From a virus, in IMG/VR virus record IMGVR_UViG_3300034283_000603, positions 1 through 25,015 of that record: a stretch of DNA of 25,015 nucleotides. One strand, written 5' to 3'. The position numbers and the translations under genes are program-made. The notes beneath the pieces are model-generated. The model had not been told where the DNA came from. It searched no databases and saw nothing but the letters and a program-made list of their open reading frames with translations. Numbering within the stretch: the stretch's first letter is position 1; each line of letters opens with the position of its first letter. Positions 3,320 to 19,673 of this stretch are shown here, piece after piece.

Positions 3320-3466
3320 GTTTACGGCTCAGTGGAACTTCGCCGTTACACTTATATAGGGGTCTAGAGGGTGGGCGTGTCTCAAGGGGTTTTGGTAATT
3401 ATTTTTAAAATATATTAAAAGTGCAGGTCAGAGCCTGGTTCTGGTGAAAATATTTTGGTTGATAGT

Positions 3467-3488
3467 GGGGGGCGGGTGGGGGGTGGGG
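3467..3488 (+). other. G-quadruplex motif
   Basis: The plus strand carries four consecutive G-runs (6, 3, 6 and 4 Gs) separated by single C or T bases, which meets the canonical G3+N1-7 pattern with very short loops. It lies in the non-coding region upstream of the terminase. Whether it folds in vivo, and any role in packaging or replication, is inference. Confidence 0.6.
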
Positions 3489-3524
3489 TTAAACATCCTG
3501 GGGGTCGGCTAGGGTAAAACACAC

Positions 3525-3548
3525 AAAAAAAGGGGCAAGGGTTGCCCC
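3525..3548 (-). terminator. Rho-independent terminator, leftward
   Basis: GGGGCAA at 3532-3538 pairs with TTGCCCC at 3542-3548 around a 3-base loop. On the minus strand the GC-rich stem is followed at once by seven T residues (the A-run at 3525-3531). It sits 79 bases past the stop of the gene at 3627-3818 and would end that leftward transcript. Confidence 0.85.
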
Positions 3549-3626
3549 CTGCCCCGCGTAACTGTGCCTGAAAAGGCGAACCCCTCCCCCACCGTCCTCG
3601 CGGAGATGGAAGAGGGGCTTGACTAT

Positions 3627-3818
3627 CTATAGAGCCCTGAACCACTCATATATACGCGCCTCACTATCGGGCTCGTCTATGGAGTGAAGGAGTGTATACA
3701 CACTCCGACTTGTCAAATCCTTGGGCGTGTCGGCTTCGCCGATGAGCGTGTAGATATCTAACTTCCCCTCGCGTACCACCGCGAGAGTACCGTTATCGTC
3801 ACACGCTATCGCCCTCAT
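3627..3818 (-). CDS. Small hypothetical protein
   Basis: A 63-residue acidic protein that I do not recognise (MRAIACDDNGTLAVVREGKL...). It shows alternating hydrophobic beta-like segments and ends EARIYEWFRAL. Its ATG overlaps the stop of the upstream gene by 4 bases (ATGA), which indicates translational coupling and supports both genes as real. A strong terminator follows at 3525-3548, so the two form a short leftward operon diverging from the plus-strand early genes. That position is typical of early regulatory or host-takeover genes, but there is no motif to assign a role. Confidence 0.65.
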   Translation of the reverse strand: MRAIACDDNGTLAVVREGKLDIYTLIGEADTPKDLTSRSVYTLLHSIDEPDSEARIYEWFRAL

Positions 3819-4081
3819 GCGCTTACTCGCTTGAGAACCACGCGAAGATTTGATGCCACGATACTTAACTCGCGCACACCCATGCTTTCGACTACGTCGA
3901 ACACGATACCGACCTTGCCTTTACCTAGTGGAACTAGGTCACCTAATTGCGCGAACTTAACGGTAGTTAATTCGAAATCAGGTACATGGTCGAGCGAGGG
4001 TACGTTATAAAAGCTTTTAACTTCGTTAACTTCATCCTTGAGATTTACTAGTAAATCATCGTGTGTCCATGCTGTAATCAT
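3815..4081 (-). CDS. Hypothetical protein, first gene of leftward operon
   Basis: An 88-residue protein with no family I recognise. The middle reads KFAQLGDLVPLGKGKVGIVFDVVESMG, with glycine turns and beta-like hydrophobic patches that could be a small barrel. The ATG at 4081 is preceded on the minus strand by AACCAACCGAAAGG (4089-4102), the same leader seen before several plus-strand genes, with the AAAGG at normal ribosome-binding distance. It overlaps the next gene by 4 bases. The divergent placement opposite the early plus-strand cluster suggests early expression. Confidence 0.7.
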   Translation of the reverse strand: MITAWTHDDLLVNLKDEVNEVKSFYNVPSLDHVPDFELTTVKFAQLGDLVPLGKGKVGIVFDVVESMGVRELSIVASNLRVVLKRVSA

Positions 4082-4102: not shown

Positions 4103-4360
4103 ATCAGCCAGCCCAGCGCCGACTGATGGAAACCATAATACACGACCAGCCCCAGCATGTCAAATTCAGACGGACAGGAAGCGTGTCGTGAGCCTGTTGG
4201 TCATGTCATACATACATGAACACACACCCCACATACACACACCGCTGCATACATACGTATGCGCGGGCAGACCTGCATGCACGTATATGGACTACTAATA
4301 CCTCACGCGTATTGGCTACTAACAGGCGGGCGCCATGATGCAGGCGCATGCACATCTCAA

Positions 4361-4390
4361 GATAGCAAAGCAAAGCTTTGCTTATATAAG
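4361..4390 (+). promoter_or_regulatory. Hairpin/TATA element, copy 1
   Basis: GATAGCA is followed by a perfect hairpin, AGCAAAGC-AAA-GCTTTGCT (8-bp stem, AAA loop), then TTATATAAGG. Two more copies lie at 5355 and 6674. The copies differ at one stem position and the opposite arm changes to match. The element lies 42 bases before the ATG at 4432. A promoter with extended -10 (TGC plus TATATA) and an operator-like palindrome is the likeliest role; an RNA stem is the alternative. Confidence 0.65.
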
Positions 4391-4431
4391 GGGAGCCAGC
4401 CGAAATTCGATTGGCAGATTGGAGAAAAGTT

Positions 4432-4605
4432 ATGAACGGTTATGGACTTTATTGGGGAGACTTCCTCGCAATTGGAATCCTCTTCAGCGTGATTGGCATC
4501 ATGCTCGTGGCTCTCGTATGGGACTACGTGGATATCAAGATAGCAGACCGTAGGTCTGCAGAGTTAGAGCAACACTGGGCAACAACAATTCGAGAGGAAC
4601 GATGA
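4432..4605 (+). CDS. Small single-pass membrane protein
   Basis: A 57-residue protein beginning MNGYGLYWGDFLAIGILFSV. One hydrophobic helix at about residues 8-33 is followed by a charged, probably cytoplasmic tail (DIKIADRRSAELEQHW). The ATG at 4432 is chosen because GGAG lies 7 bases upstream; an in-frame TTG at 4411 would add seven residues without such a site. It is the first gene after hairpin/TATA copy 1. Its last codons overlap the next start (ATGA at 4602). The tail contains a perfect 7-bp hairpin at 4543-4559. Function unknown; a membrane-acting host-takeover or superinfection-exclusion role is possible but unproven. Confidence 0.75.
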   Translation: MNGYGLYWGDFLAIGILFSVIGIMLVALVWDYVDIKIADRRSAELEQHWATTIREER

Positions 4606-4787
4606 TGGACTACAAAGTACAACTGAACCACCAAGAAGATGAGAACGCCCCTCGCGGGACAAGATACTACGTTGAGTTCTTCAAACTCAATGACTGGGAA
4701 ACCTTCGTAGGTGGAGGAGAAGGATACACATGGCAAGAAGCGATGGCAAATGCCATCGGAAAACTACAAGAGAACGGAGAAATCTAA
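4602..4787 (+). CDS. Small hypothetical protein
   Basis: A 61-residue soluble protein (MMDYKVQLNHQEDENAPRGT...) that I do not recognise. It has beta-like segments (YYVEFFKL, ETFVGGGEGYTW) and a C-terminal helix (QEAMANAIGKLQENGEI). Two ATGs in a row occur at 4602 and 4605. GAGAGG lies just upstream, and the second ATG has the more usual spacing. Overlaps on both sides (ATGA with the gene before, TAATG with the gene after) place it in a coupled early operon. A perfect 8-bp stem with a 2-base loop lies in its coding sequence at 4741-4758. Confidence 0.75.
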   Translation: MMDYKVQLNHQEDENAPRGTRYYVEFFKLNDWETFVGGGEGYTWQEAMANAIGKLQENGEI

Positions 4788-5083
4788 TGAAGTTCGCAGG
4801 AGAAGTATTCGTAAGGGACTACCTAATGGTAGTCGAGAATGACCAAGAAGCATGGGATGACCTCATCCAGATGACTCGCGTATACAAGGGAAGCGTCGCG
4901 TCTATCAGCGATGTAATCCAGTACGACTACGAAACTATGGTGACTAATGTAATTAGTCAAGTAGAAGAAACAATCCCTGCATCGGCAGTCAATTTGCTAA
5001 AGCAATTACTGCTCGGATGGGGAGCAAGTGAGTTCGATGCAATTGCAAAGTATGCAATTGAAGCAGACAAGGAGGTCGCGTAA
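4787..5083 (+). CDS. Hypothetical protein
   Basis: A 98-residue acidic, mainly helical protein beginning MKFAGEVFVRDYLMVVENDQ. I know no family for it. The ATG at 4787 overlaps the previous stop (TAATG) and has GGAG 8 bases upstream; an in-frame upstream start at 4730 lies inside the preceding gene and is less likely. The C-terminal half (LLKQLLLGWGASEFDAIAKYAIEADKE) looks amphipathic. The sequence carries an 8-bp perfect hairpin with a GTA loop at 4941-4959. It ends in a TAATG overlap with the next gene. Confidence 0.75.
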   Translation: MKFAGEVFVRDYLMVVENDQEAWDDLIQMTRVYKGSVASISDVIQYDYETMVTNVISQVEETIPASAVNLLKQLLLGWGASEFDAIAKYAIEADKEVA

Positions 5084-5355
5084 TGGGGAGCACGATGGCT
5101 CAAGACTTGGCAGAGAATGTCCTTGACATTCGGCAATCTATCAGCATCCAATTGCGAAGCAATCACTACCCGCCAGTTCCACTTACCATGGTGGAACCAT
5201 GTATCGAAGCCATCTATGCGGTATCGGAAGGGGATACTCACAAGAGTATCCAACTACCAGACGGTGTCACATGGCGTGGCTACCCTACAGCCCCCGCATA
5301 CACCATCGTAGAGGGGCATCATCTCGAACCATGGTGCGACTTCGACCATGAATAG
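5083..5355 (+). CDS. Hypothetical protein
   Basis: A 90-residue protein (MGSTMAQDLAENVLDIRQSI...) of unknown family. The N-terminal third is helical; the rest is proline- and histidine-rich (TAPAYTIVEGHHLEPWCDFDHE) with one cysteine. The ATG at 5083 overlaps the previous stop and is preceded by AGGAGG at 8 bases, a strong site; an internal ATG at 5095 is less well placed. It is the last gene of the first early group, followed at once by hairpin/TATA copy 2. Two perfect hairpins lie in the gene, at 5115-5131 and 5232-5251. Confidence 0.75.
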   Translation: MGSTMAQDLAENVLDIRQSISIQLRSNHYPPVPLTMVEPCIEAIYAVSEGDTHKSIQLPDGVTWRGYPTAPAYTIVEGHHLEPWCDFDHE

Positions 5356-5386
5356 ATAGCACAGCAAAGCTGTGCATATATATAAG
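5355..5386 (+). promoter_or_regulatory. Hairpin/TATA element, copy 2
   Basis: GATA plus the stem GCACAGC-AAA-GCTGTGC (5359-5375), then ATATATATAAGG. Compared with the other copies the variable stem base is C here and the opposite arm carries the matching G. It lies in the short gap between the gene ending at 5355 and the GP88-like gene starting at 5419. Confidence 0.7.
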
Positions 5387-5391
5387 GGCTA

Positions 5392-5410
5392 AACCAACCA
5401 ACCGAAAGGA
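5392..5410 (+). promoter_or_regulatory. Leader AACCAACCAACCGAAAGGA
   Basis: This leader ends in AAAGGA 8 bases before the ATG at 5419. The Shine-Dalgarno part is extended upstream by repeated AACC units, as at 6715, 6880, 7657 and, on the minus strand, 4089. Confidence 0.7.
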
Positions 5411-5418
5411 GCAACACA

Positions 5419-6144
5419 ATGGCAGGACTCAAGCGTTCCAATGACCGTAAGGTCACCAATATGCCAACACCAAATGGCAAACGCTCAGCAATTGCTAACA
5501 CGTTCGGCTTACCTAGTGGTAAGCAGTACTCATGTCCCAACGCCACCAGTATATGCGAGAAGATTTGCTACGCTGGAAAGTTGGAGCGCATCTTCCCATC
5601 AGTAAGAGATACTCTCTTACACAACTGGAACCTGCTTAAAGATGCAGACCTAGAGACTATGTCCAATCTATTGGACGATATGGTTGCTTCATTCCGCTTG
5701 GATTGCAAAGCAAAGGATGCCGAACCTATCTTCCGCATCCATTGGGATGGGGATTTCTTCTCCGATACCTATGCCAAAGCATGGCGAGCAGTCATCATGC
5801 TCAACCCAGACATCAAGTTCTGGGTATATACACGAGTGCCATCCGCTGCAAGAATTCTGGATGGACTTGACAACCTGTCACTGTACTTTAGTACAGATGA
5901 TGAGAACAAATCCAACGCTGTTTATCTTCGCACCGAAGGTGTAAAGATAAAGGTTGCCTATCTATCTGACACCTTTGCTGATGCAAAGGACACGATGCTC
6001 AGTATGACTGGCAAGGTGGGTGCGAAATGCCCAGAGAATCTGGGTTCCATTCCACTAATCACTACCGAAGGTAGTGCTTGTGCAACATGCCGACTATGTA
6101 TCGATGGCAAGGCAGACATTCGCTTTGCTATCGCAAAGAAATAA
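5419..6144 (+). CDS. GP88-family (Gene product 88-like) cysteine protein
   Basis: A 241-residue protein resembling the 'gene product 88' family of actinobacteriophages, whose function is not established. The N-terminal part has a cysteine cluster SCPNATSICEKICYAG (C39, C46, C50). The middle has the family-like RIHWDGDFFSDTYAKAW (about 106-122) followed by FWVYTR. The C-terminus has a second cluster: C204, then CATCRLC (C221, C224, C227). Together these could bind zinc or an iron-sulfur cluster. The start has the conserved leader and AAAGGA upstream. It heads the second early group, behind hairpin/TATA copy 2. The family call is from memory of its motifs; an enzymatic role is not shown. Confidence 0.75.
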   Translation: MAGLKRSNDRKVTNMPTPNGKRSAIANTFGLPSGKQYSCPNATSICEKICYAGKLERIFPSVRDTLLHNWNLLKDADLETMSNLLDDMVASFRLDCKAKDAEPIFRIHWDGDFFSDTYAKAWRAVIMLNPDIKFWVYTRVPSAARILDGLDNLSLYFSTDDENKSNAVYLRTEGVKIKVAYLSDTFADAKDTMLSMTGKVGAKCPENLGSIPLITTEGSACATCRLCIDGKADIRFAIAKK

Positions 6145-6154
6145 GGAGGAACAC

Positions 6155-6487
6155 ATGAACACAGTAGAAGACAGCGTGACTTTACTTGTAAAGGCTGCGG
6201 AATCTTTAACAACCTATCGCAAATCACTAGAGATATGGCGCTCAGCCATGACCGACCTAGCAATCTGGCATTCATTGGTAACAATGACCGAACAACAGGA
6301 AGAGTACGACATCGTAACCGTATTCACGCCAGCAGTGCTGATGGCGTGGATTATCCGCGACCATTGGCAACCAGTATCTATCGACGAAGATGGATACGAA
6401 GGTATCGACAATGCAGTACGTGCATATCTAATCGATAGCAAACTTGCTATTGACCCACACCACATGGAGGAGGAGGAAGATGAGTAA
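6155..6487 (+). CDS. Hypothetical acidic protein
   Basis: A 110-residue protein starting MNTVEDSVTLLVKAAESLTT. The ATG at 6155 is chosen over an upstream in-frame start at 6074 because AAGGAGG lies 5 bases before it and the upstream part overlaps the preceding gene. It is mostly helical and ends in a very acidic run (MEEEEDE) whose codons also supply the GGAGGAGGAGGA ribosome site of the next gene. I see no known domain. Perfect hairpins occur at 6435-6450 (ATAGCAA/TTGCTAT) and, with 6-bp stems, near 6180 and 6272. Confidence 0.75.
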   Translation: MNTVEDSVTLLVKAAESLTTYRKSLEIWRSAMTDLAIWHSLVTMTEQQEEYDIVTVFTPAVLMAWIIRDHWQPVSIDEDGYEGIDNAVRAYLIDSKLAIDPHHMEEEEDE

Positions 6488-6662
6488 ACATATCTACGAT
6501 ATGACAGCCGATGAACTGGCTCAACTCGTGTGCTTCGGATACGAGGGACACCCATGTACCAACACGATGGATGAATATGGATGTCGGAATAGCATGAAGG
6601 ACAACGAACCATTCTGTTCAGAATGCTGTGCCGATACCAACGATGGCGCATGCTGTGGATAA
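6480..6662 (+). CDS. Cysteine-rich small protein, probable zinc binder
   Basis: A 60-residue protein starting MSKHIYDMTADELAQLVCFG with eight cysteines. They are spaced as single cysteines after LV, HP and YG, then PFCSECC and ending GACCG. This spacing suggests a metal-binding knuckle rather than a classic zinc ribbon. The ATG at 6480 overlaps the preceding gene by 8 bases and uses the purine-rich GGAGGAGGAGGA as its ribosome site; an upstream start at 6444 is unlikely. A 7-bp hairpin lies at 6610-6625. Hairpin/TATA copy 3 follows the stop. No function can be assigned. Confidence 0.75.
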   Translation: MSKHIYDMTADELAQLVCFGYEGHPCTNTMDEYGCRNSMKDNEPFCSECCADTNDGACCG

Positions 6663-6673
6663 CAGGCGTCAAA

Positions 6674-6704
6674 GATAGCATAGCAAAGCTATGCATATAT
6701 ATAA
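6674..6704 (+). promoter_or_regulatory. Hairpin/TATA element, copy 3
   Basis: GATA plus the stem GCATAGC-AAA-GCTATGC (6678-6694), then ATATATATAACCG. The variable stem base is T, paired with A in the other arm. It precedes the gene at 6737 by about 33 bases. Confidence 0.7.
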
Positions 6705-6714
6705 CCGACCGATT

Positions 6715-6729
6715 AACCAACCGAAAGGA
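6715..6729 (+). promoter_or_regulatory. Leader AACCAACCGAAAGGA
   Basis: The conserved leader ends 7 bases before the ATG at 6737 and supplies the AAAGGA ribosome site. It is the cleanest copy of the motif. Confidence 0.7.
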
Positions 6730-6736
6730 AAACCAA

Positions 6737-7375
6737 ATGACCAGCCAAAAGTATTGGTTCGTATGTGACCAAGATGAATGTGATTCAGCCGTTGAATTCC
6801 ATGCCAGAGATGGCTTTGGATTTCCAAGCGGTGAAGTCAAGATGACCTGCCCATGTGGCAAGCAAATGCAGTACGTATCAACCCAACCAACCGAAGGAGG
6901 CACCACCATGACAACAACCGAACAAGCAGTACAAGAAGCAGTAGGCATAGCATCACTTAGCGAGGCTGACAAACTACGTGTTGACCTTGAGTCACAACGA
7001 ACCATCAATGATGGTCTACGTACCACCATCAACAACCATCGCAATCAAGTACGTGATTTATACACGATGCTCAACGACGCCATCCAAGATGGCAAGTGTG
7101 AAGAGACAAGCAACATCACCTTCGGTGAGGTATCAGACATACTCAACGAGGTATTCGGTAGCCAACTTGTGTTCACCAAAGAGTACGAAGTACAAGTTCG
7201 ATACACAGTCTATGCGTCATTCAAGGTAACGGCAGCGTCCGAAGAGGATGCTCGTTCAATCGCAGAAGAAATCGGTATCAGCGCTGACATCGAGTGGGAT
7301 ATCGACAACCAGAACACAGAGGTAGACACATGGTCTATCGATGACACACGTATCGAATACATACAGGAGGCATAA
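6737..7375 (+). CDS. Zinc-ribbon fusion protein with internal start
   Basis: The 212-residue product starts MTSQKYWFVCDQDECDSAVE. Residues 1-50 form a zinc-ribbon-like unit (CDQDEC near 10-15 and CPCG near 38-41). From residue 58 (MTTTEQAVQEAVG) a second, acidic part begins: coiled-coil-like helices, then a beta-rich C-terminus (YEVQVRYTVYASFKVTAASEEDARSIAEE) resembling small ferredoxin-like or DpnD-like sensory folds. The ATG at 6737 has the conserved leader and AAAGGA upstream. The residue-58 ATG at 6908 has its own full leader with GAAGGAGG, so two proteins may be made from one frame. It follows hairpin/TATA copy 3. Function unknown. Confidence 0.7.
   Translation: MTSQKYWFVCDQDECDSAVEFHARDGFGFPSGEVKMTCPCGKQMQYVSTQPTEGGTTMTTTEQAVQEAVGIASLSEADKLRVDLESQRTINDGLRTTINNHRNQVRDLYTMLNDAIQDGKCEETSNITFGEVSDILNEVFGSQLVFTKEYEVQVRYTVYASFKVTAASEEDARSIAEEIGISADIEWDIDNQNTEVDTWSIDDTRIEYIQEA
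6880..6910 (+). promoter_or_regulatory. Internal leader and ribosome site for second start
   Basis: AACCCAACCAACCGAAGGAGG lies in frame inside the gene at 6737-7375, 7 bases before an ATG at 6908. It is the same leader that precedes true gene starts nearby, here with a stronger GAAGGAGG. Translation starting here would give a 155-residue product without the zinc ribbon. Confidence 0.65.
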
Positions 7376-7377
7376 CG

Positions 7378-7641
7378 ATGGCAACAATCAGACGTGGCGC
7401 TAGCTGCCCCAATGGGGCAGTCATCGTCGACGCTAAGAACTCATGGGTAGATGGTGAGAAAATTATCCTCTGCCTATGGCTGAAAGACTTACAAGGTAGC
7501 GAGCCGATGTTAAGGAACGCCGACCCTTACGTAACATGGAGGGCGTACCTCCACCCAGATACAGGCGAAATCGTCTGCAACACAGGGCATTATCACGACC
7601 AGCTTAAAGATGCAGTCGTTGACTTTGCCAGCCGTATGTGA
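7378..7641 (+). CDS. Hypothetical protein
   Basis: An 87-residue protein (MATIRRGASCPNGAVIVDAK...) with beta-like stretches and three cysteines, not in a recognisable metal-binding spacing. I do not recognise the family. The ATG is preceded by AGGAGG and begins 2 bases after the preceding stop, so it is probably cotranscribed and coupled. A 7-bp GC-rich hairpin lies at 7404-7420. The next gene starts after a 42-base gap that carries the AACCCAACC leader. Confidence 0.7.
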   Translation: MATIRRGASCPNGAVIVDAKNSWVDGEKIILCLWLKDLQGSEPMLRNADPYVTWRAYLHPDTGEIVCNTGHYHDQLKDAVVDFASRM

Positions 7642-7656
7642 GAATATAACTTCCCA

Positions 7657-7675
7657 TCCAACCCAACCTGAAAGG
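7657..7675 (+). promoter_or_regulatory. Leader CCAACCCAACCTGAAAGGA
   Basis: A variant of the AACCAACC-GAAAGGA leader, ending 8 bases before the ATG at 7684. No hairpin/TATA element precedes it, so the leader and that element are separable. Confidence 0.65.
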
Positions 7676-7683
7676 AAATACAA

Positions 7684-8658
7684 ATGACAACAAGAACAGA
7701 ACGACGCCAAGCAATGAGCATTGCAGGCTATGAAGTAACAGCAACATCAGCACATGATGCAGCAGTACAAGCGGGACTCGACTGGCAAGTATCACTTGCT
7801 GATGTCGAAGCTTTAGCGTTAAGCAACGACGGCGTTAGCCGTCTGCCAGTACCCAATACATTAGCCACTGTCCGTACCGATAAGGATGGTAGTCAGGCTG
7901 TACTAGGTACAGTTGGTAGCCGATACAAAGTATTCCAGAATGATGAGATGTTCTCAGCGCTGGATGCACTAGTAGATTCTGGCGAAGCCAGGTATGCAGC
8001 AGCAGGTGCGTTACGTGGTGGTGCTCAAGTCTGGATGACCCTTGCACTTCCAAAGGAAGTGAAGATTGCTGGTGACCCACACTCTGCATACCTACTAGCA
8101 CGAACCTCCCATGATGGGTCATGCTCATTGGGTATCACACCAATCGTTAACCGATTGTTCTGCACCAATCAAATCTCTGGCATCTTCCGCAAGGATACAA
8201 AGTATTCCTTGCACCACACAACCAACGCTCAACTAAAGGTCAATGACCTTCGCCAAATGTTGGACATTATCTATACAGGTATCGAGACATACGAATCTGT
8301 GGCTGACAAGTTGTTGAATACAACTGTTAATGATGATGATGTAGCCAACATCTTTAAGAAGATGTGGTCACTGCCTAGCCATGTCGAATCAATCCCATAC
8401 TTCCGTCTCTCTCAAGGAGAGAAGCGTCAGTACAACAAAGCACTAGATGCACGTGGTGCTGCTATGAATATCTACCAAGGTGCAACTGGCACACAAGATA
8501 ACCTCAAAGGCACAGCCTTCGGTGCATTCCAAGCAATCGTTGAGTACATCGATTGGTTCAGCCACAAGTCAGGAGCAGTACGAGCAGAGCGTGTGGTGTC
8601 TGGTTCATTCGACCGCACCAAGAGCAAGGCTCTTGAACTAATCACGAAAGGAGTTTAA
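7684..8658 (+). CDS. DUF932 / phage-plasmid-like protein (TIGR03299-type)
   Basis: A 324-residue protein typical in length and pattern of the DUF932 family found in phages and plasmids. Visible features include an N-terminal segment with DWQVSLADVEAL and VPNTLATVRTD, then VLGTVGSRYKVFQNDEMFSALDALV, a central GGAQVWMTLALPKEV, a conserved-looking CSLGITPIVNRLFCTNQI, and a helical C-terminus (GTAFGAFQAIVEYIDW). The family has no settled biochemical role; links to DNA metabolism or recombination have been proposed but I cannot support them here. ATG at 7684 with AAAGGA. It is the largest gene of the early cluster and carries several perfect hairpins (8045, 8236, 8348 and 8619). Confidence 0.85.
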   Translation: MTTRTERRQAMSIAGYEVTATSAHDAAVQAGLDWQVSLADVEALALSNDGVSRLPVPNTLATVRTDKDGSQAVLGTVGSRYKVFQNDEMFSALDALVDSGEARYAAAGALRGGAQVWMTLALPKEVKIAGDPHSAYLLARTSHDGSCSLGITPIVNRLFCTNQISGIFRKDTKYSLHHTTNAQLKVNDLRQMLDIIYTGIETYESVADKLLNTTVNDDDVANIFKKMWSLPSHVESIPYFRLSQGEKRQYNKALDARGAAMNIYQGATGTQDNLKGTAFGAFQAIVEYIDWFSHKSGAVRAERVVSGSFDRTKSKALELITKGV

Positions 8659-8660
8659 CT

Positions 8661-8891
8661 ATGACAGAGAACCCGCTACAGAAGTACGTAGATGAGTTCG
8701 ACCAAGAGGTTGCTCAGCCTCCGCTATCAGCGGAGGATGGGCAGTACCTTCTCAAAGCTTTAGATTACCTAGCAATCTATGCAGAAAAAAATAATCAACC
8801 AGAGTTGGTTGAACAACCACGTCACGATGAACTAGAAGTGACAATGACTGACGTCATCCTGTACTCACGACAGGAGAATACCGATGGGTAA
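8661..8891 (+). CDS. Hypothetical acidic protein
   Basis: A 76-residue acidic protein (MTENPLQKYVDEFDQEVAQP...) with a central helix (GQYLLKALDYLAIYAEKNNQ). I know no family. GGAG is placed 9 bases before the ATG, which lies 2 bases after the DUF932 stop; the 3' end overlaps the next gene by 8 bases. Two perfect hairpins lie within it: 8718-8736, an 8-bp GC-rich stem with an ATC loop, and 8795-8812. Confidence 0.75.
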   Translation: MTENPLQKYVDEFDQEVAQPPLSAEDGQYLLKALDYLAIYAEKNNQPELVEQPRHDELEVTMTDVILYSRQENTDG

Positions 8892-9111
8892 ACTCAAGGA
8901 CAGCACCACGTTAGTGGTGCGTGAGCCATCACTAGTAATAAAGCCTATCGCTGGGTGGTCATGGTACTGTGGGTACCATGATACCTACGGTATCGGCGAT
9001 GATGAGGACGAGGTTCTCTTCATGGCTGGTGCTCATATGTACTACAAGGAAGCAGACGGAGATGTCTGCGAAATAGTTACACGAGAATGGGAAGTGAGGA
9101 AAGAAGCATGA
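8884..9111 (+). CDS. Hypothetical protein
   Basis: A 75-residue protein (MGKLKDSTTLVVREPSLVIK...), beta-like in the first half, with an aromatic patch GWSWYCGYHDTYG and an acidic stretch IGDDEDEVLF. No family recognised. AGGAG precedes the ATG, and both ends overlap neighbours (8 bases with the gene before, ATGA with the gene after). Hairpins at 8903-8920, 8960-8980 (8-bp stem) and 8982-8996 lie close together in its first third, the densest hairpin cluster in the window. Confidence 0.75.
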   Translation: MGKLKDSTTLVVREPSLVIKPIAGWSWYCGYHDTYGIGDDEDEVLFMAGAHMYYKEADGDVCEIVTREWEVRKEA

Positions 9112-9239
9112 TACATCTAGCAAGCGTGACAATCATATGCGATTACTGCAATGCAGAAATCGAACGACGAACTACACGTGAAGCACTCGAAGCTCTGGCT
9201 TACCACCAGAGATACGTGCAGTGCATGAAGGAATACTAA
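9108..9239 (+). CDS. Very small zinc-knuckle-like protein
   Basis: A 43-residue protein starting MIHLASVTIICDYCNAEIER. One CxxC pair (CDYC) near residues 11-14 and a later cysteine near the end suggest half of a zinc ribbon or a dimeric metal site. The ATG overlaps the preceding stop (ATGA), and its TAA overlaps the next ATG (TAATG), so the reading frame is held between two coupled genes. AGGAAAGAAGC upstream gives a fair ribosome site. No function can be named. Confidence 0.65.
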   Translation: MIHLASVTIICDYCNAEIERRTTREALEALAYHQRYVQCMKEY

Positions 9240-9571
9240 TGGCACGACCACGTCCGACTGAGATTAAGTTAGTTGCTAACTTATTAGACCCAGAAGATAG
9301 CGCCTCCGAAAGTGCTAGCGAGTTAGCGTTAGAGATTATCGAAGCGCTGGATACGGCACGAGGTAAGCGTGACTCATACATACTCATAGCACAGCTAGCA
9401 AGATGGGCTCCAGTCCAAGCGTGGGGTGAGTTCAACACACAACTACAGGCAGAGAAGTTTGTTAAGCACTTGGTTGCCGTAGATATAGAAGGCGATGGGG
9501 GCAGAGCCCTCATCGTCCACCTTGAACAGCCAGATAAATTACTAGAACGAATTGGAGAATTAAAGAAATGA
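9239..9571 (+). CDS. Hypothetical protein
   Basis: A 110-residue protein starting MARPRPTEIKLVANLLDPED. The ATG at 9239 is chosen over a GTG at 9221 because AAGGA lies about 6 bases upstream and it overlaps the previous stop. The sequence is helical (ASESASELALEIIEALDTARG) with a C-terminal beta/helix part (ALIVHLEQPDKLLERIGELKK). I do not recognise it. An 8-bp hairpin (TAAGTTAG/CTAACTTA) lies at 9265-9283. It overlaps the next gene by 4 bases (ATGA). Confidence 0.75.
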   Translation: MARPRPTEIKLVANLLDPEDSASESASELALEIIEALDTARGKRDSYILIAQLARWAPVQAWGEFNTQLQAEKFVKHLVAVDIEGDGGRALIVHLEQPDKLLERIGELKK

Positions 9572-9711
9572 TTACAATCATTGTCGCAATAGCAGTAGGT
9601 TTCTTTGCCTATCGGTTGGGTAATAAGAAAGGCAGGGCTGATATGTATCAGCTGTGCTACAACGCTGAGCAAACGAAAAGAGAATTCTTCTCTGACGTTA
9701 GCCAGTGGTAA
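9568..9711 (+). CDS. Small membrane-anchored protein
   Basis: A 47-residue protein starting MITIIVAIAVGFFAYRLGNK: one N-terminal hydrophobic helix (residues 2-17), then a basic and polar tail (KKGRADMYQLCYNAEQTKRE). The ATG overlaps the preceding stop by 4 bases. It is the last gene of the plus-strand cluster; the bidirectional terminator begins 5 bases after its stop. Function unknown. The topology fits a type I/III small membrane protein. Confidence 0.7.
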   Translation: MITIIVAIAVGFFAYRLGNKKGRADMYQLCYNAEQTKREFFSDVSQW

Positions 9712-9715
9712 GACG

Positions 9716-9745
9716 AAAGGCGGGGGATTATTCCCCCGCCTTTTC
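9716..9745. terminator. Bidirectional terminator between converging blocks
   Basis: A perfect 12-bp stem (AAAGGCGGGGGA at 9716-9727 with its complement at 9732-9743) closes a TTAT loop. TTTTC follows on the plus strand and CTTTCGTCTT on the minus strand. It ends the rightward early cluster and, from the other side, the leftward replication operon. The stop codon of the glycosyltransferase gene lies in the loop. Confidence 0.9.
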
Positions 9746-10507
9746 TTCTTCACGCGCCTGAGCTTTCATACTATTCATCATCGTAATCCAATAGAGTTTG
9801 TAGAACTCTTCATCATATGCAAATCGCTTCATGTGTTTAACACCAGCACCAGTGTGTCCGTATAGTGGGACGCCTGCTTCCTTCATGTTCATGAAGAACT
9901 GGATATCCTCACCAATAAATCTATCCTTACCGTCTGCACCACCAGCATCTGTCTCTAGGAACAGTGGCTTATCACCATGGAATTCTCGTATCTTATCTGC
10001 TGCATTGCGATGCATAAGTAAGAAGCCGAAGCCAGCGTAATCAATCTTAAGCAACTGGTTGGGTGGTAGAGGATGGATGTATGACATCGTGTACTTGTCA
10101 TCATCGTGTGCATTAAATAGTGCAGCGTATGGTTGCATGATGGAGGATTCCATCTGCTTACTAATGTAGTAAGTTCCGCTAACAACAGGTCGGTTGACTG
10201 GGTCAGCTGCATCCCAAACTTTTTGCAACGCTTCGGTCGTAAGAACGATGTCGCTATCTACCCACAGTATCCAATCAAAGTCTGTTTGCTTATGCCAGGT
10301 ATCGAACGCTGTCTCACGTTGTCTACCTATCTGATTGCCTTGCACACGTTGAGCTGATGTAATCGGAAGACCCGCTGTTAACAGGGAGTACACCACACCT
10401 TCCATAAACTTGCCATCTACAGTTCCATTGTCACACCAAGTCAACATGATTTGGTCGTTGCCTATCTTTGGTTTAACCTGCTTAGCAGGGTTGCCTGACT
10501 TACCCAA
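9728..10507 (-). CDS. GT-A fold glycosyltransferase
   Basis: A 259-residue protein if started at the TTG at 10507, which has a perfect AGGAGG 8 bases upstream; a GTG at 10534 would add nine residues inside the upstream gene. Near residues 78-88 the sequence reads DWILWVDSDIVLT, the DxD metal/nucleotide-sugar site of GT-A enzymes. The N-terminal MLTWCDNGTVDGKFMEGVV and the later DYAGFGFLLMHRNAADKI fit the fold. GEDIQFFMNMKEAG (family-2-like [E]D-x-x-F) follows. The acceptor could be cell-surface glycan, virion protein or modified DNA; the sequence does not say. The last codons (EEKAGE) form one arm of the terminator. Confidence 0.85.
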   Translation of the reverse strand: MGKSGNPAKQVKPKIGNDQIMLTWCDNGTVDGKFMEGVVYSLLTAGLPITSAQRVQGNQIGRQRETAFDTWHKQTDFDWILWVDSDIVLTTEALQKVWDAADPVNRPVVSGTYYISKQMESSIMQPYAALFNAHDDDKYTMSYIHPLPPNQLLKIDYAGFGFLLMHRNAADKIREFHGDKPLFLETDAGGADGKDRFIGEDIQFFMNMKEAGVPLYGHTGAGVKHMKRFAYDEEFYKLYWITMMNSMKAQAREEEKAGE

Positions 10508-10676
10508 CGTTGCTACCTCCTGCCCATCCTCCACCTTTAAAGTGAATAGGTGCTGCGACGAACAGCTTCGTTAATGTTATGTTGCAATCACTGCATTTAG
10601 GAAACTCTTCACCATCTTTAATGTTATGTTCTACCACCTTGTCACAGGTAATACATTTGAAATCCCAAGTTGCCAT
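10500..10676 (-). CDS. FmdB-like zinc-ribbon protein
   Basis: A 58-residue protein starting MATWDFKCITCDKVVEHNIK. Two CxxC pairs (CITC at 8-11 and CSDC at 28-31) and the ending FKGGGWAGG match the small FmdB-type regulatory zinc ribbon, which typically ends in an F-x-G-x-G-W motif. Its ATG overlaps the stop of the sigma-like gene (TAATG), and its 3' end overlaps the glycosyltransferase start. The role is unknown; proteins of this kind are often called regulators without direct evidence. Confidence 0.8.
   Translation of the reverse strand: MATWDFKCITCDKVVEHNIKDGEEFPKCSDCNITLTKLFVAAPIHFKGGGWAGGSNVG
10505..10521 (-). promoter_or_regulatory. AGGAGG site deciding a TTG start
   Basis: On the minus strand AGGAGG (10516-10521) lies 8 bases before TTG (10505-10507). 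No ATG occurs in frame near it, so this site sets the glycosyltransferase start. Confidence 0.75.
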
Positions 10677-11314
10677 TAGTACGGAGCCCCTCCTCCAAGT
10701 AGTTCTGATATATCTCGTACACCTCGTGTTGCTATCTGCTCTACTCGTTGCGGGGATATCTCCCAGTTAGTAGCAATCTCTGTTAGTGGTTGGTCTTGTG
10801 CAAACCTAGCGTTGAGTATCCCTTGTGTACGTGGGTCAAGCTTCTTCATTGCGCGGTCAACATCGGCTAGCATAGCTAGCAGATTGTTACCTTCACTTGC
10901 TTGCTTCTTAGCTTTGATGCCATGAACATCTGGGTCTAGTACTTGGTTAACCAAGTGAGTGTCTTCTGAACCAAGAACTTTAATTAAGTTCTCAATCATC
11001 TCGATGCGATAGAAGTATTCATCACCCAACTCATAGCCAAGCGAACGTGCCTTCTCCTTGCGAGCATATCGCTCGCCTGCCCTACGCATGAAGGTAGAGA
11101 AAGCTTTGTAACCCATACGCTTTTCATTCTCTTCTTCTCGTATAAGGTACTCTGCTACCTTGTCCTTACGTTTCCAAGCGTACTCATTCATGGCTTGCTT
11201 GATGTCTGCTTGTTCGGCAAACCGATGGTACTTCTTGGATAGGTTATAAGAAAGCACAGATGTAATATCGTTGACCTGTTCCCAGATGGGATGGTCACGT
11301 GTCAGCTCAGTCAT
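10676..11314 (-). CDS. Sigma-70-like transcription factor
   Basis: A 212-residue protein. The C-terminal part (about 152-205) resembles sigma region 4: KKLDPRTQGILNARFAQDQP followed by an HTH, LTEIATNWEISPQRVEQIATRGVRDI. The N-terminal half (about 15-95) is helical and basic (SYNLSKKYHRFAEQADIKQA) and could be a divergent region 2. It would bind host RNA polymerase and direct it to phage promoters. It lies late in the replication operon, overlapping the endonuclease VII stop by 8 bases. The ribosome site is weak (GGTGA), which fits translational coupling. Region 4 is convincing; region 2 is inference. An HTH regulator without sigma activity is the alternative. Confidence 0.7.
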   Translation of the reverse strand: MTELTRDHPIWEQVNDITSVLSYNLSKKYHRFAEQADIKQAMNEYAWKRKDKVAEYLIREEENEKRMGYKAFSTFMRRAGERYARKEKARSLGYELGDEYFYRIEMIENLIKVLGSEDTHLVNQVLDPDVHGIKAKKQASEGNNLLAMLADVDRAMKKLDPRTQGILNARFAQDQPLTEIATNWEISPQRVEQIATRGVRDISELLGGGAPY

Positions 11315-11594
11315 GTGACTTCACCAAGTATTCGATTGACTTGAGCAACAGGTTAGGGTCATCGCCTAACAAACCAAGGGCGCGATTATGGTTACTGCAA
11401 AGCAGTCCTCGTACCTTGCCACTCTTATGACAATGGTCAATGTCGAGCGCTCTACTCGTGGGAGCTGAGCCACAAATGTAGCAAGCTCCACCCTGCTCTT
11501 CGAACATTCGGTCGTAGTCTTCAACACTAATACCGTAAGACCGAATGCGAGACACACGTTGCTCTTCGTAAGTTTTATTTCTGTTGCGTGGCAT
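11307..11594 (-). CDS. Endonuclease VII-like HNH nuclease
   Basis: A 95-residue protein with the recombination endonuclease VII pattern: YDRMFEEQGGACYICGSAP (zinc C38, C41), the catalytic LDIDHCHKSGKVRGLLCSNH (D53, H54, H56; zinc C66, with H69), then NRALGLLGDDPNLLLKSIEYL. Phage enzymes of this family resolve branched DNA before packaging. The length is that of the minimal catalytic unit. GGGAGAAG lies next to the ATG, and the start overlaps the preceding gene by 20 bases. Small HNH proteins can also be homing nucleases, but its fixed place in the coupled operon favours a replication role. Confidence 0.9.
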   Translation of the reverse strand: MPRNRNKTYEEQRVSRIRSYGISVEDYDRMFEEQGGACYICGSAPTSRALDIDHCHKSGKVRGLLCSNHNRALGLLGDDPNLLLKSIEYLVKSHD

Positions 11595-11892
11595 ACTTCT
11601 CCCAGATGCCTCGCTCTACCATCAACGCAATGATTGCGTAGTTGGCTATGTCAATGAAGCTATCTTCAAGTGCCTCGTTGTTTGGTTCAATACTGTTATA
11701 GATTAAATTCTTTAATCGCTCTAACTTATCTGACATACGAACCATCAACCCATTGGTTGCACCACCAGGTGCATTCCAAATATTGAGTGGACCGTAATCG
11801 ATTTGCTTCATGACCAAGATATCCAGAAGATGGTCGTAAATTTCCTGAGCGTCTTCCTGGAAATTATCGATGGTTAATTTACTGGTTGCCAA
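11575..11892 (-). CDS. DUF1599 / nucleotide-modification-associated-like protein
   Basis: A 105-residue all-helical protein. The pattern MKQIDYGPLNIW...GLMVRMSDKLERLKNLI...NEALEDSFIDIANYAIIALM matches the DUF1599 family, also named nucleotide modification associated domain 1: the conserved YG..N, R..DK..RL and D..D.ANY blocks are all present. Such proteins are related to MazG-type all-alpha NTP pyrophosphatases, so nucleotide pool clean-up or base-modification support is plausible but unproven. It starts with TTG at 11892, after AAGGGG. It sits between the TOPRIM primase and the endonuclease VII gene. Confidence 0.8.
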   Translation of the reverse strand: MATSKLTIDNFQEDAQEIYDHLLDILVMKQIDYGPLNIWNAPGGATNGLMVRMSDKLERLKNLIYNSIEPNNEALEDSFIDIANYAIIALMVERGIWEKYATQQK

Positions 11893-11903
11893 CGGAGCCC
11901 CTT

Positions 11904-12551
11904 CTAACTGTCTAATGCATTAATCAATGCGGTTAATGCTTGAGCTCCTTGGTCTACAATTATACTATTGATATCACTGTCAGGCGGTAGCGACACGCGC
12001 ATAGACTGTGGGATTGCATCCTGTAATCTGCGAGCTAAGTCCTGCCCTGGGTTAGAGCCATCTTCTTTAACGTCGTTATCTGTAGCAATTACTACTCTAC
12101 CTATACCATCAAAACAACGTGAGAAATAAGGCTTCCAAGCGTTAACGCCAGCGACAGCGACAGCAGGATGACCAGCAAGAGTTGCAGAAATAGCATCAAT
12201 CTCTCCTTCAACAATTAACACCTCCCTTACCGCATGAAGTATTGCGCCTACGTTATACAAATGATGCTTCTGACCAGTAGGTATCATGTACTTAGGGTCA
12301 CCATCATCAATGCGACGGAACTTAAACCCGACAACACCAGCCTCGGTAATGTATGGAATAGATAAGTGATGCTTGAGTCTGTCCTCGTGACCAGCAGCAG
12401 GCTCTACTACATAGCCCAACAGAAATTGTTGGGCGCCATCTAGGATGCCACGCTTCTCAAGGTATGCCTCAGCTGGTGAACCAGCTAATGAATCGTGATA
12501 TGTATGTGCTGCCTTTGTCCAGAGTTCAATGAGCTTGGGATTGGTTCTCAC
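11904..12551 (-). CDS. DNA primase, TOPRIM part (split primase)
   Basis: A 215-residue protein holding the catalytic TOPRIM domain of a DnaG-type primase: VLIVEGEIDAISATLAG (E115 as the general acid/metal residue), VAVAGVNAWKPYF, and VVIATDNDVKEDG (D158-D160). The N-terminal 100 residues (AYLEKRGILDGAQQFLLGYV, GFKFRR) look like the primase RNA-polymerase N-subdomain. The CHC2 zinc domain is absent and is instead encoded two genes upstream (13075-13407), with the Ntn-hydrolase gene in between. The start is GTG, overlapping the previous stop (GTGA) with GGAGAAGAA upstream. Primase and zinc parts presumably act together with the helicase. Confidence 0.9.
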   Translation of the reverse strand: MRTNPKLIELWTKAAHTYHDSLAGSPAEAYLEKRGILDGAQQFLLGYVVEPAAGHEDRLKHHLSIPYITEAGVVGFKFRRIDDGDPKYMIPTGQKHHLYNVGAILHAVREVLIVEGEIDAISATLAGHPAVAVAGVNAWKPYFSRCFDGIGRVVIATDNDVKEDGSNPGQDLARRLQDAIPQSMRVSLPPDSDINSIIVDQGAQALTALINALDS

Positions 12552-13078
12552 TTCTTCTCCTGTCTGTGTGTAATAAACGGAGGTGCAGTATACACATCAT
12601 TGCGAGCAGCAATCTGCATTGCTTGCTTCCATGTTGCGCCACCTGCTAATGCACCAAGAGCCCATGATGAACCAGACCCTACGCCATACAGACCATCGTC
12701 ACGTAGGTATACAGAATAGTTATCATCTACTTGGTAGATGGTTCCATTGATTGCTAATAAAAATTCAAACCCAGCATCCTCATCATCCTTGCTTGGGCTA
12801 TACCCAGACTCCTTGATGCAGTCCCTCATGCTAGGTACTACGGTTGTAATCATAAAGTGATACTCGTCTTTGATATTGGCTGGGATTGCTGGTGGTTTCC
12901 ACACGTGTTGGATTACATCACATGGTTGCACATCACCTGCACCTGCGACCAGCCACTTGCCACGTTTAGTTATCTTAGTAACTATCGGATGCGAGAACGG
13001 TCTACCACCTGCTGTGGTACGTGAGTCGGCTGCAAGAATGCAGCCGTTGTCTTGTTGGATACCAATAATAGTTGTCAC
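12548..13078 (-). CDS. HslV/proteasome-like Ntn-hydrolase
   Basis: A 176-residue protein with the HslV/20S beta-subunit pattern. After removal of the initiator residue it begins TTIIGIQQDNGCILAADSRT, so Thr1 would be the nucleophile, with Asp17 and Lys34 (VTKITKRG) at the expected places. A GVGSGSSWALGA segment (about 132-143) matches the serine/glycine turn of HslV (IGSGG-x-YA-x-A). Length (about 175) equals HslV. It starts with GTG. It lies between the two primase genes with 4-base overlaps at both sides. No HslU/ATPase partner is in the window. It could be a peptidase acting with host unfoldases or on phage proteins. Confidence 0.85.
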   Translation of the reverse strand: MTTIIGIQQDNGCILAADSRTTAGGRPFSHPIVTKITKRGKWLVAGAGDVQPCDVIQHVWKPPAIPANIKDEYHFMITTVVPSMRDCIKESGYSPSKDDEDAGFEFLLAINGTIYQVDDNYSVYLRDDGLYGVGSGSSWALGALAGGATWKQAMQIAARNDVYTAPPFITHRQEKK

Positions 13079-13407
13079 AACGCAGCTCTCAATCTAGGTG
13101 GTGTCCACCTACCACTGCCCTTCTTCCGTCCACGTGTAGGAGTAGATGACTTAGACTCTTTGCCTATGTTCTTCTCCGCCCATGAACGAGCCTCTGGGTA
13201 TGTTAGCTTCTCACGTGCCATGATTATCTGTATACCAGAACCACTTGCGTTACATGCATAACATACCCAGACGCCCTTGTCTGAGTTTACTGAAGCAGAC
13301 TTACGTGAGTCATCATGTACAGGACACAGGATTGATTTCTCCCCGCCAAGTGGCAAGGTCAATCCGTAATGATTGAAGACTGCTTCTAGAAACTCAGGCT
13401 GATTCAT
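13075..13407 (-). CDS. DNA primase CHC2 zinc-binding part (split primase)
   Basis: A 110-residue protein with the DnaG-type zinc motif: CPVHDD (C28, H31) and WVCYACNASGSGIQIIM (C49, C52). A short helical segment (LTYPEARSWAEKNIG) and a basic tail (RGRKKGSGRW) follow. It recognises template for primer start in complete primases. The catalytic TOPRIM part is a separate gene at 11904-12551, with an Ntn-hydrolase gene between them. The ATG at 13407 has only a distant AAAGGA; the upstream lysozyme gene ends 3 bases away, so coupling is likely. Confidence 0.9.
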   Translation of the reverse strand: MNQPEFLEAVFNHYGLTLPLGGEKSILCPVHDDSRKSASVNSDKGVWVCYACNASGSGIQIIMAREKLTYPEARSWAEKNIGKESKSSTPTRGRKKGSGRWTPPRLRAAL

Positions 13408-13410
13408 TTG

Positions 13411-13788
13411 TTAATACCAGTTCCTTTCCTGGTGGAACCTGTACGCCCCGCACCAAGTATCGTATCGATGGAGCACGTAGTCGTGCGCCTCCTGAGTCTG
13501 TTTGAGTAATGACCAATGAGGTTTCCCCCATAGTAATTGCCACACTCCACGAGCTCCACTCTTTTTGTTGAGTGACGTCTCGTTGTAGCGACTCTCCTTG
13601 TACGCAATACGTTTCGCACATAGTCGCTGCTCCTTCTCGGTCACGAACTGAGCAATCGCATACTCCACTCTCTGTTCCTTGTCCATTACGGACATGCGAA
13701 CTTCGTGTGTAAGTTTGGGTGATAACGCTTGTGCTGGTGATACCAACACGAATGCTATCGCTATGCCCATCGTTGTCGCTAACCGCAT
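13411..13788 (-). CDS. Secreted lysozyme/transglycosylase-like protein
   Basis: A 125-residue protein with an N-terminal signal peptide (MRLATTMGIAIAFVLVSPAQA, predicted cut after AQA). The rest resembles a small soluble lytic transglycosylase fold: AYKESRYNETSLNKKSGARG, with E65 as candidate catalytic acid, VWQLLWGKPHW, and an ending HRYDTWCGAYRFHQERNWY, typical of small SLT-like proteins. It would cut peptidoglycan outside the membrane. AGAGG is close upstream of the ATG. It lies inside the DNA-metabolism operon, far from the endolysin/holin genes at 19674-20568. A longer frame at 13394-13840 in another phase is a shadow. Confidence 0.8.
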   Translation of the reverse strand: MRLATTMGIAIAFVLVSPAQALSPKLTHEVRMSVMDKEQRVEYAIAQFVTEKEQRLCAKRIAYKESRYNETSLNKKSGARGVWQLLWGKPHWSLLKQTQEAHDYVLHRYDTWCGAYRFHQERNWY

Positions 13789-13826
13789 AGTTACCTCTTT
13801 TCATTTTGTAACCAGCTGTCACATGA

Positions 13827-14180
13827 TTACTGATGTCCATTGTAACCTGCCTGTTTAAGCAGATTTACCCAGAGTTCCGCAGGCATTACTGCATACGACT
13901 CTGAGATATTAGAAGTGCCACGCTTCTTCATTAAGACAACGCCTGTTTCTGCATCTGCATGCGTCATCTCATCCTCAAGTTCCCGAAGGTACTGAGGAAT
14001 TCTAAATGATTTTTCATTCTTGCATTCTATAACTACACCATTGATACCGTCAATGTCACCGACATCGTCGTGACGACCAGCACCATACGCACGTTCGGCA
14101 CATGGGTAACCCATACTTCTTAACCACTTGACTACGTCACGTTCAAACTGTGAGCCTTTACGTTTAGCTGCTGTTGTCAT
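13827..14180 (-). CDS. Holliday-junction-resolvase-like PD-(D/E)XK nuclease
   Basis: A 117-residue protein: KRKGSQFERDVVKWLRSMGY (E13), GRHDDVGDIDGINGVVIECK (D42, E52, K54), then IPQYLRELEDEMTHADAETG and GVVLMKKRG. This is the compact resolvase-type PD-(D/E)XK fold common in phages of actinobacteria, likely cutting branched recombination or replication intermediates. The ATG overlaps the WhiB stop (ATGA), with AGGAG 7 bases upstream. It is the second small PD-(D/E)XK nuclease of the operon besides 14611-15003; substrate specificity cannot be read from sequence. Confidence 0.88.
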   Translation of the reverse strand: MTTAAKRKGSQFERDVVKWLRSMGYPCAERAYGAGRHDDVGDIDGINGVVIECKNEKSFRIPQYLRELEDEMTHADAETGVVLMKKRGTSNISESYAVMPAELWVNLLKQAGYNGHQ

Positions 14181-14446
14181 GTGTAATCTCCTGGTATCAG
14201 TGAGTCTAGTTTTATATTTAACTTACGACGGATTGCCATTCGGTCACGCGGTGTCATCCCACCCCATAAACCATAACCTTCGTGGCGTACTGCCCAGTCA
14301 AGACATTCTGTCTTTACTTGACAGCCAGAACATATCATCTTGCCAAAAGCATACATTGATGTATCGCCTTCGTTCTCAGAATCTGGGTAAAAAAAATCGC
14401 TACCAACTTCTCTGCATTGACCACGTGATAGGTCTGGCATTCGCAT
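14177..14446 (-). CDS. whiB: WhiB-family iron-sulfur transcription regulator
   Basis: An 89-residue protein with the full WhiB signature: C11, then C39-x2-C42-x5-C48 (CSGCQVKTEC) to hold a [4Fe-4S] cluster, followed by GYGLWGGMTPRDR (the G[VI]WGG turn) and a basic tail (RRKLNIK) for DNA contact. WhiB proteins bind the sigma-A subunit and are found only in actinobacteria and their phages, so this is the best host indicator in the window. GGAG lies 7 bases before the ATG. It is coupled to the resolvase gene by ATGA. Phage WhiB copies may override host septation or redox programmes. Confidence 0.96.
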   Translation of the reverse strand: MRMPDLSRGQCREVGSDFFYPDSENEGDTSMYAFGKMICSGCQVKTECLDWAVRHEGYGLWGGMTPRDRMAIRRKLNIKLDSLIPGDYT

Positions 14447-14456
14447 CTATAACTCC

Positions 14457-14618
14457 TTAAGGTCGACGTTTTAATCTATAAAGATTTTCCCAATACCTTA
14501 ATGCAACTTCATCTGTAACTACAAGATGACGCCACCTTTTTCTTTTCTGCATTCCAAGGTATGCAAGTACGTGCCACTTAACCCAAGCACCACGCAAGAA
14601 GATTGTTATCTTATTCAT
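14457..14618 (-). CDS. Small basic protein
   Basis: A 53-residue, strongly basic protein starting MNKITIFLRGAWVKWHVLAY and ending RYWENLYRLKRRP, with a KRKRWRH cluster in the middle. The ATG overlaps the 3' end of the nuclease gene by 8 bases. The stop lies 10 bases before the WhiB start, and the WhiB ribosome site (AAGGAG) begins right at it. The charge and size fit a nucleic-acid-binding accessory protein, but no family is recognised. Confidence 0.7.
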   Translation of the reverse strand: MNKITIFLRGAWVKWHVLAYLGMQKRKRWRHLVVTDEVALRYWENLYRLKRRP

Positions 14619-17364: not shown

Positions 17365-17450
17365 ACCAGCATATTCCTTTCTTGTGTCCTAAGACACGCC
17401 GTTTATTTTTACCAATAATCTGATAGGGTTGAGGGGTGGTGGGAGGGAAA

Positions 17451-17470
17451 GGCTTGCCTGATGGCAAGCC
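17451..17470 (-). terminator. Upstream hairpin of tandem terminator
   Basis: GGCTTGCC (17451-17458) pairs with GGCAAGCC (17463-17470) around a TGAT loop: a perfect 8-bp stem. On the minus strand it is followed only by TTTCCC, so by itself it is a weak terminator. It lies past the stronger hairpin at 17496-17521 and may catch readthrough. Confidence 0.5.
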
Positions 17471-17483
17471 GTGGTAGAAAAAG

Positions 17484-17521: not shown

Positions 17522-17531
17522 CCTTTTAGCC

Positions 17532-19663: not shown

Positions 19664-19673
19664 GACTTATCTC

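Follow-up and report, generated by a model that had tools for sequence, protein, structure and literature searches.

The window analysed here is the 25,015-nucleotide stretch formed by positions 1 to 25,015 of the IMG/VR virus record IMGVR_UViG_3300034283_000603. Its genes contain a large excess of short, perfect hairpins, which are very probably selected, sequence-independent structural elements of one actinobacterial phage lineage. Unless another stem limit is stated, a hairpin is defined as a perfect inverted repeat with a stem of at least 7 bp and a loop of 1–5 bases. Expected counts were obtained from shuffles in which synonymous codons were permuted (100 shuffles for the plus-strand block).

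Hairpin excess in the coding sequences

The plus-strand gene block at 4411–9865 contains 29 hairpins, compared with 1.6 ± 1.2 after shuffling and a maximum of 6 in any shuffle. At a stem limit of at least 6 bp, 50 hairpins were observed versus 6.9 in shuffles, and at a limit of at least 5 bp, 78 versus 24.8. Chance or codon usage is therefore ruled out as the source of the hairpins by the synonymous shuffles. An initial annotation had estimated about 25 hairpins in 4364–9283, 22 of them in coding sequence, and all 17 examples that it listed are found at the positions and with the loops given, one of them (8960–8980) lengthening to 8959–8981. The enrichment holds, and the exact tally is higher: 31 hairpins were counted, 30 of them distinct (4364 and 4368 are two registers of one locus), with 27 of the 31 fully intragenic and the remainder belonging to three intergenic AGCaaaGCT-type loci. 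That region is indeed studded with hairpins, as had been proposed, but the excess is not limited to it. Genes at 3415–4081 are also enriched (4 versus 0.1 expected), and a weaker excess is seen at 10.7–24.9 kb. No excess was found at the terminase end of the window for stems of at least 7 bp (1 versus 0.9); terminase copies across relatives show 2.9 times the expected hairpins for stems of at least 6 bp. The intragenic hairpins of 4364–9283 (loops in lowercase), two hairpins beyond that region and the blocks of the census are given below.

4543–4559, plus strand: GCAGACC gta GGTCTGC, gene 4411–4605
4672–4690, plus strand: TTGAGTT cttca AACTCAA, gene 4602–4787
4741–4758, plus strand: CGATGGCA aa TGCCATCG, gene 4602–4787
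4817–4834, plus strand: GACTACC taat GGTAGTC, gene 4787–5083; CGATTACC tatc GGTAATCG in relative G001
4941–4959, plus strand: TGACTAAT gta ATTAGTCA, gene 4787–5083
5040–5060, plus strand: CAATTGCA aagta TGCAATTG, gene 4787–5083
5115–5131, plus strand: GAATGTC ctt GACATTC, gene 5083–5355
5232–5251, plus strand: GGATACTC acaa GAGTATCC, gene 5083–5355; kept in relatives
5507–5524, plus strand: GCTTACC tagt GGTAAGC, Gp88-family gene 5419–6144; GCTTGCCA ag TGGCAAGC in relatives
5602–5620, plus strand: GTAAGAGA tac TCTCTTAC, Gp88 gene; GTGAAGCAA gtg TTGCTTCAC and GTGAAGGAG gtt CTCCTTCAC in relatives
5661–5676, plus strand: GTCCAAT ct ATTGGAC, Gp88 gene
5881–5896, plus strand: CTGTACT tt AGTACAG, Gp88 gene; 20 of 21 aligned copies paired, with altered sequence
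5972–5989, plus strand: CCTTTGC tgat GCAAAGG, Gp88 gene
6060–6076, plus strand: CACTACC gaa GGTAGTG, Gp88 gene
6435–6450, plus strand: ATAGCAA ac TTGCTAT, gene 6155–6487
6610–6625, plus strand: CATTCTG tt CAGAATG, gene 6480–6662
7001–7015, plus strand: ACCATCA a TGATGGT, gene 6737–7375
7404–7420, plus strand: CTGCCCCA a TGGGGCAG, gene 7378–7641
8045–8061, plus strand: CACTTCC aaa GGAAGTG, DUF932 gene 7684–8658
8236–8250, plus strand: AAGGTCA a TGACCTT, DUF932 gene
8348–8365, plus strand: ACATCTT taag AAGATGT, DUF932 gene; stem of at least 6 bp in 25 of 26 aligned copies
8619–8635, plus strand: CAAGAGC aag GCTCTTG, DUF932 gene; in 20 of 26 aligned copies
8718–8736, plus strand: CCTCCGCT atc AGCGGAGG, gene 8661–8891
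8795–8812, plus strand: TCAACCA gagt TGGTTGA, gene 8661–8891
8903–8920, plus strand: GCACCAC gtta GTGGTGC, gene 8884–9111; GCACCACC tt GGTGGTGC in relative L007
8959–8981, plus strand: TCATGGTAC tgtgg GTACCATGA, gene 8884–9111
9265–9283, plus strand: TAAGTTAG ttg CTAACTTA, gene 9239–9571
3923–3939, minus strand: hairpin in divergent gene 3815–4081, beyond 4364–9283
4042–4057, minus strand: second hairpin in divergent gene 3815–4081, beyond 4364–9283
4411–9865, plus strand: densest hairpin gene block, by shuffles
10676–24920, minus strand: remaining window genome, weaker excess by shuffles (25 versus ~4.7 expected, stem at least 7 bp)

The excess is a property of short loops. Across six genomes of the clade, 412 hairpins with stems of at least 7 bp and loops of 2–5 bases were found versus ~55 in the null, whereas loops of 8–12 bases were near the null (81 versus ~63). 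With loops of 2–5 bases, stems of 7, 8, 9 and 10 bp occurred at 6, 11, 14 and 22 times the null, respectively. Because only short loops are in excess, composition or general repetitiveness cannot explain the hairpins. They are spaced at about one per 100 nt, and nearly all stems are at most 10 bp long. The triloops GAA, GTA and GGA are ~2–3 times more frequent than background, but this is not specific to them, with AAA and TTT similarly enriched; the remark of the initial annotation on unusually stable GTA and GAA DNA mini-hairpins is therefore right only in part. No excess of GNRA or UNCG tetraloops was found in the window clade.

Evolution of stems and distribution among phages

Hairpins are preserved in relatives as their sequences change. 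At the window 5602 site, aligned copies from relatives bear GTAAGAGAtacTCTCTTAC, GTGAAGCAAgtgTTGCTTCAC and GTGAAGGAGgttCTCCTTCAC, which differ yet all pair. Pairing-preserving double changes outnumbered those in phase-matched control pairs by 21 to 0 at 3–8% divergence, 72 to 19 at 8–15% and 215 to 70 at 15–25%. Substitution rates were compared at four-fold synonymous sites of ancestrally perfect stems after outgroup polarisation; the frame at 13394–13840 behaved as a wrong frame and was excluded. Only 15 of 578 such stem sites (2.6%) had changed, compared with 746 of 7490 control sites (10%; odds ratio 0.24, p = 4e-11), 10 of 75 sites in hairpin loops (13%) and 50 of 557 in flanks. Nominal p values are optimistic, since the selection counts include related sequences. 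The fairest control is provided by ascertainment-matched stems of wide-loop inverted repeats, in which 36 of 681 sites (5.3%) had changed, and short-loop stems are still about two-fold slower than these. Together with the shuffles, slow stem sites and compensatory changes bear out the proposal of the initial annotation that structure, not sequence, is selected; neither of the two outcomes that it named as refuting this was observed.

Hairpin density is 4–9-fold over expectation in most genes of the plus-strand block and ~3-fold in the terminase gene, at similar four-fold divergence, which is a further sign of selection. Stem gains are mostly single changes at third codon positions. Codon alignments stay in frame across the hairpins, and translational bypass elements are ruled out, the reading frame being uninterrupted by them.

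All 24 relatives with a DUF932 protein 60–100% identical to that of the window carry 2.6–6.4 hairpins per kb versus 0.2–0.4 expected; a relative with a 30% identical DUF932 protein shows no hairpin excess. At terminase identities of 86–100%, 70–76% and 49%, the locus hairpin ratios for stems of at least 6 bp were 3.8, 2.0 and 1.3, respectively. Three cultured Beephvirinae, which are Streptomyces phages, contain 48, 41 and 50 hairpins versus 7.4, 8.2 and 7.8 expected (~5–6.5-fold), and the annotated genes of the replication block of Manuel (Beephvirinae) contain 19 versus 2.7. Ratios near or below 1 were found for phiC31, D29, phi29, lambda and Klevey. The Streptomyces phage phiC31 has 7 hairpins where 9.9 are expected, and the signal in Planktophila phage F5 is weak. 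A host-wide property is therefore ruled out: phiC31 and the Beephvirinae differ despite their common host genus, and the hairpin excess is a trait of the phage lineage that cannot be attributed to the host. An assembly or amplification artefact is likewise ruled out, because independent metagenomes and cultured isolates agree. Among other phages, T7 genes contain 0 hairpins versus 10.3 expected, an apparent avoidance, and N4 genes contain 42 versus 17.4, a 2.4-fold excess, with a folding excess of 14%.

Level of action and competing explanations

Action at the level of mRNA is favoured, on modest evidence. Among single mismatches in stems, G·T on the coding strand was enriched 3.0-fold versus 1.3-fold for A·C in the putative early block (p = 0.012) and 2.8-fold versus 0.9-fold in the Beephvirinae (p = 0.011). 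Within genes, the first 20 nt show little hairpin excess (5 versus 3.9), which rises to ~4-fold from position +20. In the intergenic hairpins of three Beephvirinae genomes (L134, L138 and L139), for which strands are annotated, UNCG tetraloops lie on the coding strand in 15 cases versus 1. Several observations weigh against a selected structure acting in the mRNA. Stem-breaking changes show no G·U preference (GU 19, AC 21–24), the folding excess of the antisense strand is ~0.9 of that of the sense strand, and the strand asymmetries reach p values of only ~0.03–0.07 when each site is counted once. Individual hairpins also turn over: once divergence exceeds 25%, only 52 of 1591 are still intact. 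A bias toward U as the first loop base was weakened once counts were collapsed per site.

The selected elements are very probably local stem-loops (stem ~6–9 bp, loop ~3–5 bases) that are placed in coding sequence mainly by synonymous codon choice. Under the proposed mechanism, such short-loop hairpins would form quickly, and again after the passage of each polymerase and in the gaps between ribosomes, and the transcript would therefore be held locally self-paired. This pairing would most likely reduce either attack by single-strand endonucleases of the RNase E/J type or re-pairing with DNA or antisense RNA. The stems would themselves be too short for RNase III, 6–9 bp lying below its usual substrate length, and the start codon would be left free of hairpins. 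This protective role in transcripts is tentative. The combination of selected structure, action in RNA and protection is the best explanation as a whole and is held at about even confidence. It is rather doubtful that the hairpins form a sequence-independent code that a phage or host factor uses in transcription, translation, decay or defence, as opposed to a by-product of stability.

Hairpins could also arise by mutation. Template switching at quasipalindromes, in which one arm is copied from the other and perfect short hairpins are created or repaired without any function, has been documented as a source of hairpins (PMC8794818) and put forward to explain an excess of short inverted repeats (as cited in PMC6649704). 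Strictly Watson-Crick stems, short loops and near strand symmetry fit this process, but it is improbable as the explanation here. Four-fold stem sites evolve ~4 times more slowly than control sites (2 times versus the matched control), where no slowing is predicted, and single breaks outnumber paired changes by 54 to 7 in polarised comparisons. Among 125 cases with a one-mismatch ancestor, 8 changes fell on the mismatch and 1 of them restored pairing (small numbers), multi-base gains touch both arms rather than one in 6 of 7 cases, and hairpin density differs from gene to gene despite similar four-fold divergence. Thus, neutral or faster stems, mostly paired changes, rapid repair and one-arm copying, all expected of a template-switch bias, were not seen. 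General selection for stable mRNA folding, of the kind seen in RNA viruses with genome-scale ordered structure, would leave the hairpins as a by-product and would account for local folding energies 14–19% below synonymous shuffles (4–7% in lambda, T7 and F5). However, when artificial random genes were selected for an equal gain in energy, their loop spectrum remained flat and short-loop stems of at least 7 bp were almost absent, and in N4 the folding excess is comparable although hairpins are fewer. This explanation is equally improbable; since simulated energy selection lacks the short-loop peak, a specific preference for Watson-Crick hairpins with short loops must be at work.

If the structures instead form in DNA, as cruciforms or hairpins of single strands that serve in replication, in packaging or with a structure-specific nuclease, the near symmetry of the strands would follow, and candidate enzymes are encoded in the window. 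These are Endonuclease VII and a PD-(D/E)XK protein (13827–14180, minus strand) whose homologue in the Beephvirinae is annotated as a Holliday-junction resolvase and which is present in hairpin-rich phages and was not found in the hairpin-poor F5. A DNA-level role is nevertheless unlikely: in two lineages the coding strand favours G·T over A·C, start codons show little excess, and hairpin density tracks gene blocks. Terminator and pause hairpins have stems and loops of similar size, which would suit a pacing of early transcription by pause or attenuation signals or by intragenic terminators lacking U-tracts. One hairpin per ~100 nt would be extreme for terminators, however, and U-tracts follow only 5 of 313 hairpins, compared with a background of 143 of 13890, which rules out U-tract (intrinsic) terminators and leaves this explanation very improbable.

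Neighbouring elements, known systems and significance

Three hairpins lie between genes, in copies of an element consisting of AGATAGCAnAGCaaaGCTnTGC followed by TATATA (4358–4398, 5353–5393 and 6672–6712).

4364–4382, plus strand: intergenic hairpin AGCAAAGC aaa GCTTTGCT, copy 1 of 3 of the AGATAGCAnAGCaaaGCTnTGC plus TATATA element
5359–5375, plus strand: intergenic hairpin GCACAGC aaa GCTGTGC, copy 2 of 3 of the AGCaaaGCT element
6678–6694, plus strand: intergenic hairpin GCATAGC aaa GCTATGC, copy 3 of 3 of the AGCaaaGCT element

The element is kept in relatives, and its n positions vary in compensatory fashion. These hairpins form a separate repeated element, which may act in mRNA processing or be linked to promoters, and their function may differ from that of the intragenic ones. 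At 9716–9743, where the plus- and minus-strand gene blocks converge, a GC-rich perfect 12-bp hairpin with T-rich ends is probably a bidirectional terminator.

The window is a 25-kb part of a phage genome of ~41 kb, as estimated from the sizes of relatives. Besides Endonuclease VII, it encodes a terminase, a split primase, a DnaB-like helicase, a sigma factor, WhiB, Gp88 and DUF932 proteins. The terminase of the window shares 46% identity with the one in OX376641, an assembly named LanE43-AprF5 in agreement with the cultured Ca. Planktophila phage F5 (PMC10202952), and ~42–43% with those of the Streptomyces phages of the Beephvirinae. The host is inferred to be a freshwater actinobacterium; a host scan using WhiB returned no match. 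Several tandem proteins of ~170–200 amino acids at 21339–24130 (minus strand) all match one short stretch of F5, which suggests a duplicated gene family. In this actinophage, a weak match to a proteasome subunit lies at 12548–13078 (minus strand; Pfam E = 0.00035, below the cut-off). One relative (IMGVR_UViG_3300027754_000069, 82,688 bp; G002) has two terminase genes ~41 kb apart, 96% and 88% identical to that of the window, and is probably an assembly chimera of two joined phage genomes.

Ladoukakis and Eyre-Walker (2008), as cited in PMC6060812, described small inverted repeats in the coding sequences of prokaryotes. Inverted repeats in Escherichia coli are depleted just before start codons and enriched ~25–60 bp after them, and across E. 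coli genes as a whole their number is reported to be below random (PMC6060812). The phages share with this map short perfect inverted repeats in genes and a similar start-codon profile, but their excess is ~18-fold, runs throughout genes, is lineage-specific and is accompanied by purifying and compensatory evolution. In mitochondrial genes of Nematomorpha, coding palindromes have arms of up to 284 bp (PMC6649704). These too are perfect inverted repeats in functional protein genes with both arms coding, whereas the phage arms are 6–9 bp with loops of 3–5 bases, densely placed, in double-stranded DNA phages. Hairpins left by template switching (PMC8794818) likewise have perfect Watson-Crick stems and compensatory changes; the phage stems are under purifying selection, with no one-arm multi-base changes or rapid repair seen. 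The genome-scale ordered structure of RNA viruses resembles the present case in its pervasive local structure of coding RNA, kept over sequence, and a genome-wide folding energy below codon-preserving shuffles is common to both. The phage differs in its double-stranded DNA genome and in uniform short-loop perfect hairpins that simple energy selection fails to produce. The promoters of the N4 virion RNA polymerase are also short, perfect, small-loop hairpins in a phage. Their sequence and position are conserved, unlike the stems of the window, which all differ and have no common sequence.

Small inverted repeats in genes were already known; this case is set apart by an order-of-magnitude excess that is restricted to a single phage lineage and shown to be under selection. 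The finding is relevant to phage genome annotation and offers a clean case in which template-switch mutation can be separated from selection. Because the trait is present in plaque-forming Streptomyces phages, the role of coding-sequence hairpins in bacteria and phages is open to direct test by recoding. Beyond their coding content, the messages of these phages probably contain a further layer of information, structural in kind, in which hairpins are preserved while sequence changes.

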